Source of the DNA: Luminiphilus sp.
GTDB taxonomy: Bacteria > Pseudomonadota > Gammaproteobacteria > Pseudomonadales > Halieaceae
Direction: 5' to 3'
Assembly (NCBI GenBank): GCA_012270045.1
Contig: JAAXJC010000153.1
Coordinates: forward strand, 43,655-107,654
DNA length: 64,000 nucleotides
Position numbers and translations under genes: made by a program. This document shows, in pieces, positions 29,990 to 45,396 of the stretch (position 1 is the first letter of the stretch; each line of letters starts with the position of its first letter). The notes under the pieces were generated by a model that searched no databases, was not told the DNA's origin, and saw only the letters and a program-made list of their open reading frames with translations.

Positions 29990-32425
<2,436 letters not shown>

Positions 32426-32442: not shown

Positions 32443-33570
32443 TTACAAATCGTTACCACGGCCTGAGCCTGGTGAGCCCGTTACCGCTCCCTGTTCCACG
32501 TGGAACAGTTTTTTGTTCGCACCAGACCAAAACCCAGCGACCTCTTGCTCACTAACCGTGGTGATGAGCACCTGAGAGGCCTCGTTCTCGAGCAAACCAC
32601 CGACCCGGGCGGCATGATCCAGGTCCAGTTCCGCGGCAATATCATCAACCGCGTAAACTGGCGAGCCGCCCCGGCCGTCGGCCATCAGTCGCCCCTGTGC
32701 CAATCTCAGGGCGATGGTGGTCAGTTTCAACTGGCCCCGGGACATGACCTCTGCCGCCGGGCGACCTCCCCATTGCAAACGCAGATCAGCCCTGTGCGGC
32801 CCAACATGGGTGAACCCCCTGGCCCTGTCGGACTCGAGACTCCTGACCAAACCAGCCTCCAGAGTCCCCGCCTGGTCCCACCCGGGGCGATAAGACAAGC
32901 AAACCGACGCCAGCTCCGGGCTTAATTCAGCCATCACCCCCTCAAATACAGGGCCCAGCTCTTCAACCAATGACGCACGTTGTGTTGTCAGGATGCTGCC
33001 GGTCTTTACCAGCTCGGGCAACCAGGGATCATCCCTGCCTATAGTACCATGGCGAAGCCCCGCATTACGCTGTTTTAGCGCTCGCTGATATCGCCTCCAA
33101 ATATTGATAAAGCCCTGTTCCACGTGGAACAGGGCCCCATCCATCAGCCGCCGCCGGCCCTCGGGCGGCCCCCCAACGAGCTCAGTGGAGGTGGGGTCAA
33201 TAATTATCGTTGGCAACACGGTGGCGAACTCTGCCAGGGATGCGGCGGGCTCGCCGTTAATTTTCAGGGTGAGCTCGCCAGTCCGGGTACGTCTCATACC
33301 CAGGGACAAGACCCCGGCCTTCACCACCACACGGGCCTGAACCACGCAGTCCTCCCGGTCGTGCTGGATTACCGGCCCAATGGTGTTGGAACGAAAGGAC
33401 CGGCCGGTGGCCAACAGGGATACGCCCTCGAGAATGCTGGATTTACCGCTGCCGTTGGGGCCCGCAATAACGTTGCCACCGGCGGCAAATTCGATCCGCT
33501 GCGTAGCCAGGTTGCGCACCCCTTCTACATAAAGGCTCTCAAGCCATGGGCCATGGTTGTCTTTGGTCAT
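32443..33570 (-). CDS. recF: DNA replication and repair protein RecF
   Basis: GPNGSGKSSILEGVSLLATGRSFR, MSRGQLKLTTIALRLAQG, gyrB-recF-dnaN-dnaA order. Confidence 0.95.
   Translation of the reverse strand: MTKDNHGPWLESLYVEGVRNLATQRIEFAAGGNVIAGPNGSGKSSILEGVSLLATGRSFRSNTIGPVIQHDREDCVVQARVVVKAGVLSLGMRRTRTGELTLKINGEPAASLAEFATVLPTIIIDPTSTELVGGPPEGRRRLMDGALFHVEQGFINIWRRYQRALKQRNAGLRHGTIGRDDPWLPELVKTGSILTTQRASLVEELGPVFEGVMAELSPELASVCLSYRPGWDQAGTLEAGLVRSLESDRARGFTHVGPHRADLRLQWGGRPAAEVMSRGQLKLTTIALRLAQGRLMADGRGGSPVYAVDDIAAELDLDHAARVGGLLENEASQVLITTVSEQEVAGFWSGANKKLFHVEQGAVTGSPGSGRGNDL
32492..32507. promoter_or_regulatory. parS: parS centromere site (perfect 16-bp palindrome)
   Basis: TGTTCCACGTGGAACA, matching the ParB/Spo0J parS consensus family; parAB is encoded about 11-12 kb away. 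Confidence 0.93.
33116..33131. promoter_or_regulatory. parS: parS centromere site (second perfect copy)
   Basis: TGTTCCACGTGGAACA, identical to the site at 32492. Confidence 0.93.
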
Positions 33571-33605: not shown

Positions 33606-34703
33606 TCAGAGCCGCATTGGCATAACCACGTAAAGCGAGTCGCCCTCCTCCGCCTCTTCGAGCAGTGCGCTGCTCGCCGAGTCCGACAGGGACAGCCTGA
33701 TTTTCTCGCCATCCAACACGGAGAGCACATCCAGGAGATAGCTGACATTGAAGCCCACCTCCAGCTCATCTCCCTGATATTCGACAGCGACCACCTCCTC
33801 AGCCTGCTCCTGCTCTGGGTTGTTGGCGGTGATATCCAGGGTGTCCTCGCTTAGCTTTAACCTGACGCCTCGATACTTTTCGTTGGAAAGGATGGCCGTC
33901 CTGGTAAAGGCCTGGCGAAGTTCAAGGCGCTCACCTATCACAGTTTTATCAGCCGACTTGGGCAGTACCCGTTCGTACTCAGGAAACTTGCCGTCGACCA
34001 GCTTTGAGGTGAAGGTGAACTGTTTGTTCACCGCTCGAATATGGTTGCTGCCAATCACAAGCCGCAGCGTATCGTCGGCATCCAACAGGCGTGACAGCTC
34101 CAAAATGCCCTTGCGAGGGACAATGACCGAGGCGTCTCCAACACTGACCGCATCGTCCGCGGTACACAGTGCCAGGCGATGCCCGTCGGTCGCGACCATG
34201 CGCAAGCGCCCCGCCTTCAGCTCCAACAGCATACCGTTCAAGTAGTAGCGCACATCCTGCTGCGCCATGGCGAAGCTGGTCCGCTCTATCAGCCGTTTCA
34301 GCACCGCCTGGGGTAGTTCGAGGGACAAATCACCCCCCTGCTCATCCACCGACGGAAACTCAGACGCTGGCAAGGTGGAGAGTGTGAATCGGCTGCGCCC
34401 CGCCTTCACCATGGCCTTACCCGAGCTGACACTGAATTCTATTGTGGAACCGTCTGGAAGGGACTTACAGATGTCCACCAGCTTGCGCGCCGGAACGGTG
34501 ATTTCCCCATCCTCGCTATCACCATCCACAGGCACCCGACCCACCAGCTCCACCTCCAGGTCCGTCCCCGTAAGAGACAGCTGCCCCGCCTCCAGGCTCA
34601 TGAACACGTTGGACAATATGGGCAGGGTCTGGCGCCGCTCGACCACACCGGCTACCAGGTTGAGCGGTTTGATCAGGGCATCCCGGGAAATACTGAACTT
34701 CAT
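33606..34703 (-). CDS. dnaN: DNA polymerase III subunit beta (sliding clamp)
   Basis: MKFSISRDALIKPLNLVAGVVERRQTLPILSNVFM, C-terminal VVMPMRL. Confidence 0.97.
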   Translation of the reverse strand: MKFSISRDALIKPLNLVAGVVERRQTLPILSNVFMSLEAGQLSLTGTDLEVELVGRVPVDGDSEDGEITVPARKLVDICKSLPDGSTIEFSVSSGKAMVKAGRSRFTLSTLPASEFPSVDEQGGDLSLELPQAVLKRLIERTSFAMAQQDVRYYLNGMLLELKAGRLRMVATDGHRLALCTADDAVSVGDASVIVPRKGILELSRLLDADDTLRLVIGSNHIRAVNKQFTFTSKLVDGKFPEYERVLPKSADKTVIGERLELRQAFTRTAILSNEKYRGVRLKLSEDTLDITANNPEQEQAEEVVAVEYQGDELEVGFNVSYLLDVLSVLDGEKIRLSLSDSASSALLEEAEEGDSLYVVMPMRL

Positions 34704-36348: not shown

Positions 36349-36357
36349 TTATCCACA
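36349..36357 (+). promoter_or_regulatory. DnaA box (consensus)
   Basis: TTATCCACA exact. Confidence 0.8.
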
Positions 36358-36467
36358 AACCCAATCCGTTCGCAAACGCTTTTTTTATCAACAAAATCAA
36401 TGGTTTGTGCGTTGTCTTGGCGCTAACCCGAAACCCAAAACAAATCAAGTATCAACAACGATCTGCC

Positions 36468-36476
36468 TGTGGATAA
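36468..36476 (-). promoter_or_regulatory. DnaA box (consensus, reverse orientation)
   Basis: TGTGGATAA = reverse complement of TTATCCACA. Confidence 0.8.
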
Positions 36477-43015: not shown

Positions 43016-43640
43016 ATCGGCGCCGGTGCTGCTGCAACAAGGCTTGCGCCGCTTGGGGGTTTGCCTGGCAGATGCCCAGCAGGACACGCTGCTGGCCTAC
43101 CTTGATCTGGTGCACCGTTGGAACAAGGCCTACAACCTGACTGCGGTCCGGGGCCTGGATACCATGGTCACCCGTCATCTGCTCGACAGTCTGGCGGTAA
43201 TAGATCTGCTGCCATCGGGTGTGGTTTTGGATGTTGGCTCGGGTGCGGGCTTGCCCGGTGTACCTCTCGCCGTCGCCCGCCCGGACCAAACGTTCCATCT
43301 TTTGGACAGTAATGGAAAAAAAACCCGGTTTCTGTATCACGTAAAAACCCAACTGGCACTGGATAATGTTGAGGTCCTGGAACAACGTGTTGAGAGTTAC
43401 CGGCCAAGCTCCCGGTATCCAACCATTATCAGCCGGGCCTTTGCGAGCCTGGATACCATGGTGAGTTCCTGTGCCCATCTTCTGGCGCCCCAGGGAGTAA
43501 TGTTGGCCATGAAAGCCATCGGTGTTCATGACGAGTTACCGGCCCTGGAGGACCGGGGTGTCTCAGTAGCGCTGCAGGAACTGCAGGTACCGGGGCTGGA
43601 TGAGACAAGGTATCTTGCCCAGCTGGCATTGTCCCAGTGA
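43008..43640 (+). CDS. rsmG: 16S rRNA (guanine-527-N7)-methyltransferase RsmG
   Basis: [43 protein letters not shown]; follows mnmG. Confidence 0.95.
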
Positions 43641-43665
43641 GCGAAACGAGAGCCGAATACCCGTT

Positions 43666-44436
43666 ATGAAAATCGTAGCCGTTGCAAATCAGAAAGGGGG
43701 CGTTGGCAAAACCACCACCAGTGTCAACCTGGCAGCCAGTTTGGCGGCGATGGGTAGGCAGGTTCTGCTGGTGGATCTGGATCCCCAGGGCAATGCCACC
43801 ATGTCTTCCGGTGTCGACAAGCAGGCCGCTGAGTTAACGACCTATGATCTGCTGGTTGATGAACTGCCCCTCAACGAGGTGATGGTGCCGGCGGCGGACA
43901 GCGGCTATTTTGTTGTACCTGCCAACCGCAACCTGACAGCTGCGGAGGTGGAATTACTTGACGTCGATGGTCGGGAGCGCCGGCTGGCAAAAGCACTTTC
44001 TGCAGGTTACCAATTCGACTTGATCATCATCGACTGCCCGCCTTCCCTGAGCATGCTGACCATCAATGCCCTCGTTGCCGCCCAGTCGGTCATTGTTACC
44101 ATGCAGTGTGAGTACTTTGCCCTAGAGGGCCTGTCTGCCCTGCTCAACACCATTCGCCGTATCGCGGACACGGTCAACCCAAAGCTCAAAATAGAGGGTA
44201 TTCTGCGTACCATGTACGACCCCAGAAACTCCCTGACCGGGGAGGTATCGAAGGAACTGCAGAAACATTTTGGCGATTTGGTGTACCGGACAGTAATACC
44301 GCGCAACGTTCGTCTTGCAGAGGCGCCAAGCCACGGCTTACCGGCCCTGCATTATGATCGGTACTCTTCTGGAGCCCGGGCTTATGCGGCGCTGGCGGGT
44401 GAGTTCGTGAAGAAACAGAATCAGGATGCGTCCTGA
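43666..44436 (+). CDS. parA: Chromosome partitioning ATPase ParA (Soj)
   Basis: MKIVAVANQKGGVGKTTTSVNLAASLA, DLDPQGNATMSSG, DCPPSLSMLTINAL. Confidence 0.96.
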   Translation: MKIVAVANQKGGVGKTTTSVNLAASLAAMGRQVLLVDLDPQGNATMSSGVDKQAAELTTYDLLVDELPLNEVMVPAADSGYFVVPANRNLTAAEVELLDVDGRERRLAKALSAGYQFDLIIIDCPPSLSMLTINALVAAQSVIVTMQCEYFALEGLSALLNTIRRIADTVNPKLKIEGILRTMYDPRNSLTGEVSKELQKHFGDLVYRTVIPRNVRLAEAPSHGLPALHYDRYSSGARAYAALAGEFVKKQNQDAS

Positions 44437-44484: not shown

Positions 44485-45396
44485 TTGAGCACAAAAAAAC
44501 AACGCGGCAAACTGGGTAAAGACCTGGACCTGTTGTTGGGCGACCTGAAGGCACCGATCCCGTCCCAGGATGGGCCCGGGCAAACAGAGTCCGGTGCACC
44601 GGCTCGTGAGGCCCAGTCGGGGAGCCGGTCTGACCTGCGCCACCTGCCCCTGGAGCAACTTCGGCGGGGTCAGTTCCAGCCGCGCAGGGATTTTGATGAC
44701 CAGACGCTGGCGGAACTCGCTGACAGTATCCGGGTGCACGGGGTGTTGCAGCCGATAGTGGTCAGGCCCCTGGCCACGGGCGGTTGGGAAATTGTAGCCG
44801 GCGAGCGCCGTTGGCGCGCCAGCCAGATTGCGGGCAAAGACAGTATTCCGGCGGTGGTCAGGGACGTGGGTGACGAGGCCACGGTGGCGATGGCCCTGAT
44901 CGAAAATATTCAACGTGAAAACCTGAACGCCATAGAAGAAGCCCAGGCCCTGCAGCGTCTGCAGATGGAATTTACCCTCAGTCAGCAGGACATTGCGGAC
45001 CGGGTAGGCAAGTCCAGGCCGGTAATCGCCAACTTGTTGCGGCTGTTAACTCTGGAACCCGCGGTCAGAGGCTTGCTGGAAGCAGGTCATATCGACACGG
45101 GTCATGGCAAGGTGCTGCTGGCGTTACAGGGGGGCGAGCAGGTCAAAGCCGCCCAGCAGGTTGCCAAAAAGGGTCTCTCGGTACGCCAGACAGAAGCTTT
45201 GGTGAAGTCCCTGCAGGGAAGTGGTGGTTCTGACAGCAACGGGCAGGACCCGGATGTTGCGCGACTGGAGCGGGAGTTGTCCGGCCGGCTTGGCTCCCCG
45301 GTCGCCATCACCCAGGGTAAAGGGGGTAAAGGCAAGATTGAAATCCGTTACTCCAGCCTCGACGAGTTGGATGGCATTCTTGGTCGCATCCGCTGA
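44485..45396 (+). CDS. parB: Chromosome partitioning protein ParB (Spo0J)
   Basis: LPLEQLRRGQFQPRRDFDD, VAGERRWRASQIAG, ENIQRENLNAIEEAQALQRL, HTH region; TTG start. Confidence 0.95.
   Translation: MSTKKQRGKLGKDLDLLLGDLKAPIPSQDGPGQTESGAPAREAQSGSRSDLRHLPLEQLRRGQFQPRRDFDDQTLAELADSIRVHGVLQPIVVRPLATGGWEIVAGERRWRASQIAGKDSIPAVVRDVGDEATVAMALIENIQRENLNAIEEAQALQRLQMEFTLSQQDIADRVGKSRPVIANLLRLLTLEPAVRGLLEAGHIDTGHGKVLLALQGGEQVKAAQQVAKKGLSVRQTEALVKSLQGSGGSDSNGQDPDVARLERELSGRLGSPVAITQGKGGKGKIEIRYSSLDELDGILGRIR

Follow-up and report, generated by a model that had tools for sequence, protein, structure and literature searches.

Two identical 16-bp palindromes lie inside the coding sequence of recF in the oriC region of a Luminiphilus-like gammaproteobacterium, and the question that they raise is whether they form a centromere written into a gene for a repair protein or reflect what RecF itself, or some other factor, requires. 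The window, as the whole analysed stretch of 64,000 nucleotides is called here, has Luminiphilus as its closest named relatives.

A palindrome pair beside the chromosomal origin

The gene order gyrB-recF-dnaN-dnaA, followed by yidC-mnmE-mnmG-rsmG-parA-parB, is that of the standard oriC block (Table 1). Two exact DnaA boxes (TTATCCACA, at 36349 and 36468) and one mismatched copy fall inside 128 bp, the exact boxes sitting in the dnaA/rpmH interval, and the cumulative GC skew has its minimum at 38-42 kb of the window. Because of these exact boxes and the skew minimum, the putative origin is placed between recF and parAB. The original prediction had put the partition genes across the candidate origin from the palindromes, and both do lie beyond the dnaA/rpmH interval. 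The adjacency of a KGGVGKTT ParA to ParB, in the order mnmG-rsmG-parA-parB, marks the system as ParABS (type Ia-like). ParB contains the sequence GERRWRA, with the CTP-binding GERR motif, and a helix-turn-helix, and scores above the TIGR00180 cut-off; its nearest sequence relatives among solved chains belong to the ParB/Spo0J/Noc group (7bnk, 6t1f, 1vz0).

Table 1. Coordinates of the parS sites and neighbouring features in the window.
Feature	Positions	Strand	Description
gyrB	29990-32422	minus	downstream flank of recF; PRK14939, 1291 bits
recF	32443-33570	minus	375 aa, host of both parS sites; TIGR00611, 301 bits (cut-off 172)
parS, C-terminal recF position	32492-32507	none	exact 16-bp palindrome TGTTCCACGTGGAACA; RecF residues 355-360, LFHVEQ
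parS, internal recF position	33116-33131	none	exact 16-bp palindrome TGTTCCACGTGGAACA; RecF residues 147-152, LFHVEQ
dnaN	33606-34703	minus	upstream flank of recF; TIGR00663, 357 bits
dnaA	34754-36448	minus	TIGR00362, 594 bits
candidate oriC (DnaA-box cluster)	36349-36476	none	dnaA 5' end; boxes and GC skew
parA	43600-44436	plus	chromosomal partition ATPase, deviant Walker motif KGGVGKTT; ParA-family matches
parB	44485-45396	plus	probable binder of both parS; TIGR00180, 184 bits (cut-off 58); GERR motif, helix-turn-helix

As originally predicted, the two exact copies lie 624 bp apart within recF, each read in its frame as CTG TTC CAC GTG GAA CAG with Gly as the next residue. Even when two mismatches are allowed, the whole window contains no third copy of TGTTCCACGTGGAACA (chance expectation 0.17). 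A scan of the entire assembly (3,356,165 bp in 225 contigs, 100% complete, a draft whose gaps may hide more parS) for TGTTNCACGTGNAACA with at most one mismatch returned just two matches, both in recF, while the reversed pattern gave none. The copies are not scattered: they are few and origin-proximal, neither being more than about 4 kb from the DnaA-box cluster, as expected of a chromosomal parS. A chance origin of the palindromes was ruled out by sequence shuffles and the genome-wide scan. In alignment, the sites occupy the same RecF positions, in the same reading register, as the parS pair of Pseudomonas-like sequences (L184-L187).

The two palindromes are almost certainly the chromosomal parS centromere, presumably bound by ParB and embedded in recF in the register seen in Pseudomonas and most Gammaproteobacteria. 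In ParABS systems, parS is where ParB is loaded as a CTP clamp; ParB then spreads, and ParA moves it. ParB binding and a segregation function of recF sites have been demonstrated in P. aeruginosa only, and by analogy the same steps may be expected here: ParB, encoded 11-12 kb away across oriC, would be loaded at both sites as a sliding clamp and would spread over the gyrB-recF-dnaN region, and ParA would move the ParB-parS complex, so that newly replicated origins separate.

Codon constraint on the shared bases

If RecF itself needed LFHVEQ twice, the palindromes could simply follow from codon bias, and conservation at the protein level would be explanation enough. Codon choice argues strongly against this. 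Among distinct recF genes encoding the peptide.FHV[EK]., the trio CAC-GTG-RAA is found at 291 of 298 sites, where the codon usage of the individual genes would predict about 20; the excess is seen at both the internal (147/150, 9.8 predicted) and the C-terminal position (144/148, 10.1 predicted). The dual-coding constraint proposed for these bases thus holds, with CAC, GTG and GAA or AAA kept at nearly all sites. In the recF of the window, GAG is used 19 times and GAA seven times, and both parS sites nonetheless have GAA. Synonymous entropy was compared across 97 conserved recF columns: the six His, Val and Glu columns of the parS sites are the lowest (0.10-0.23 bit), the next lowest stands at 0.76 and the median at 1.93. 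The codons under the palindromes are therefore not free, as the original prediction had it, whereas other conserved columns vary freely. The degenerate positions of parS do vary (TTC or TTT at the Phe wobble, Glu or Lys). Selection for ParB binding would freeze the synonymous positions of the coding copies, which spell xTG-TTY-CAC-GTG-RAA-CAx, and would also constrain the RecF peptide to [LMV]-F-H-V-[EK]-[QH].

The protein sequences bear on the same question. The internal Phe and usually the His stay in some gammaproteobacteria that have no palindrome (VFHSEP, LFHAEP, VFHTES, CFHNES), as a demand of RecF itself would have it, but Val and Glu drift once the core is gone (in these peptides and in LFHTQD), and two Vibrio-like sequences (L188/L189) keep a C-terminal MFHVEH with its His written CAT. 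Outgroup RecF proteins have unrelated residues at both sites: in 49 sequences from other Pseudomonadota, FHVE never occurs at the internal site and hardly ever at the C-terminal one, and the 14-bp parS core occurs at neither position of recF (0/49).

The sixth residue shows a trade-off between the two codes. The perfect 16-mer requires a final CA, hence Gln or His, and many internal sites have Pro (CC). The internal sites with Pro, Arg or Leu here keep CAC GTG RAA in 51 of 52 cases and are therefore still selected as parS, which fits the P. aeruginosa parS1 (TGTTCCACGTGGAACC), where ParB binding is only slightly weaker than at parS2 (PMC4368675). On a recF tree built without the parS columns (FastTree, approximate), residue 6 has changed from Pro to Gln/His or back no fewer than 38 times.

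Distribution across the class and loci without recF

Among high-quality relatives in the genus and order, 30 of 31 have exact parS, in most cases exactly two copies; one genome (G054) has six. The cultured L. syltensis NOR5-1B (L037) likewise has both sites. The recF loci of 61 relatives carry the exact 16-mer at both positions (43), at the C-terminal position only (14), at the internal position only (3) or at neither (1). In one metagenome-assembled genome (G033, L087), recF is split by a frame change and two exact parS remain, 608 bp apart; the assembly may be in error here, or recF may be decaying while the centromere is kept. Across the class, surveyed with 140 gammaproteobacterial genomes, one per family, exact parS is present in 94. 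Among the 187 distinct recF genes compared from Gammaproteobacteria, 138 have the 14-bp core GTTNCACGTGNAAC in frame at each of the two positions, 30 have it at one and 19 at neither; these are slight undercounts, given that the set includes four or five fragments. Placement in recF is thus not obligatory, about 10% of these genes being without both cores, and the double motif is missing from Vibrio-like and Pasteurellaceae-like RecF (taxon names inferred). At the internal site of L066, L083, L135 and L158, GTG has become ATG (FHMEQ, FHMEH, FHMKP and FHMKH, respectively), breaking the central CACGTG; such changes are possibly early steps of site loss. Three loci of one family (f32: L200, L201, L210) carry, besides the two recF sites, extra cores that either precede the recF frame or fall within a 5' extension of it. 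In G185 (L264:2493-5926), gyrB is displaced by about 3 kb and five cores are present: recF contains one, and the other four lie beyond its 3' end, ahead of the start of gyrB.

No recF match was obtained in 25 of the 140 class genomes. Five of these (G058, G101, G111, G168, G169) were dropped, as they also have no full-length gyrB and their assemblies probably do not include the operon; three genomes without ParB and one with a divergent recF (G150) were set aside as well. Among the 16 ParB-positive genomes left, 13 have parS cores at the dnaN-gyrB locus, eleven of them in a dnaN-gyrB gap of 65-268 bp and two immediately upstream of gyrB, at loci where dnaN was not seen. Seven of the eleven gaps hold a pair of cores 26-43 bp apart. 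No exact core was found in the recF-less G091 and G149. In G148, also without a recF match, three cores lie in mnmG/rsmG beside parAB (L258:2585-3712), a centromere placed across the origin. Several independent losses of recF are probable, because the recF-less genomes require at least ten changes on the gyrB tree, five of them forced by well-supported branches. The sites in the gaps could be either originals left by deletion or newly formed. A further arrangement is seen in G157, a genome with no detectable recF, where 14.3 copies of a 43-bp unit form a tandem array directly upstream of gyrB (L273:1244-1858, contig C48); twelve copies have the exact core GTTTCACGTGAAAC, and the array is an iterated, satellite-like bacterial centromere.

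Since parS cores are found at the dnaN-gyrB locus where recF is gone, the DNA sites are selected independently of the RecF protein. Together with the codon excess, these loci show the DNA to be conserved beyond protein coding, and a need of RecF for the peptide as the sole cause of the palindromes becomes very improbable. Much the same slight probability attaches to a factor other than ParB: a conserved palindrome in DNA or RNA within a gene could serve another protein, through transcription, mRNA structure or autoregulation of RecF, but the palindrome has the canonical sequence of a ParB site, the P. aeruginosa recF sites bind ParB and support segregation, the genome bears ParAB and offers no parS candidate other than this pair, and the cores also occur at loci that have no recF. 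Recent duplication or gene conversion of one palindrome, with no long-term constraint, would account for the 16 shared bp and the common hexapeptide and has next to no probability, as families that are only distantly related have both positions filled, the two sites of a genome can differ in their degenerate bases and the flanks of the two sites are unrelated.

Significance and comparison with known systems

The occurrence of parS in recF is already known from Pseudomonas, a point that the original prediction left out together with the class-wide extent of the arrangement, and the window is a new example of it. In the literature searched, placement in recF is stated only for P. aeruginosa, and neither its class-wide extent, nor a measurement of its codon signature, nor the occurrence of parS between dnaN and gyrB where recF has been lost was found; the main parS survey (Livny 2007) lay outside this search, and no priority is claimed for the class-wide pattern. 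Beyond the centromeric reading of the window itself, it is likely that the recF parS pair is the ancestral centromere of the Gammaproteobacteria, dictating RecF residues and codons across the class, and that the DNA sites outlived the gene in several lineages, where a compact pair (usually 26-43 bp apart) was left or re-formed in the dnaN-gyrB gap. Claims of non-coding functions within genes are common, but such functions are rarely quantified; here, across a bacterial class, the same bases serve a centromere and a repair protein and show a clear signature in codon choice, and the system also offers a protein-level trade-off (Pro versus Gln/His at residue 6) and natural gene-loss experiments. 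As a practical consequence, the centromere of an uncultured gammaproteobacterium can be sought by checking recF or the dnaN-gyrB gap.

The closest known system is that of P. aeruginosa, whose parS1 and parS2 are located in recF (Bartosik 2004; Jecz 2015, PMC4368675; PMC5521831; PMC3909081) and bind ParB (PMC4368675, PMC5521831). Segregation requires one of parS1-4, any of which is enough by itself, and synonymous mutation of the recF sites (CAC>CAT, GTG>GTA, GAA>GAG) abolishes high-affinity ParB binding (PMC4368675); an excess of ParB reduces expression of recF-gyrB and neighbouring genes (PMC5521831). The likeness to the window is close: two recF sites lie at a distance of about 4 kb from oriC and parAB lies across the origin from them, parS2 (TGTTCCACGTGGAACA) is identical to the 16-mer of the window, and Pseudomonas-like genomes carry parS at the same RecF motifs, WGVFHVE[P/Q] and MFHVEH. 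However, the parS sites of P. aeruginosa number ten, of which four are near oriC, whereas the genome of the window has the two recF sites only, and parS1 ends in CC (a Pro codon), unlike the perfect palindromes found here. In Xanthomonas citri, parS (TGTTCCACGTGGAACG) is placed at the dnaN 3' end (PMC3937727, citing Livny 2007); it resembles the sites of the window in being chromosomal and within the dnaN-recF-gyrB block, at 3 kb from the origin, but it is described as a single site at the end of dnaN and not as two in recF. In Caulobacter crescentus, a hot spot for parS insertion extends over recF-gyrB (PMC5815017). The insertions are experimental and the native parS cluster lies elsewhere, but the likeness is that the recF-gyrB neighbourhood tolerates and favours parS.
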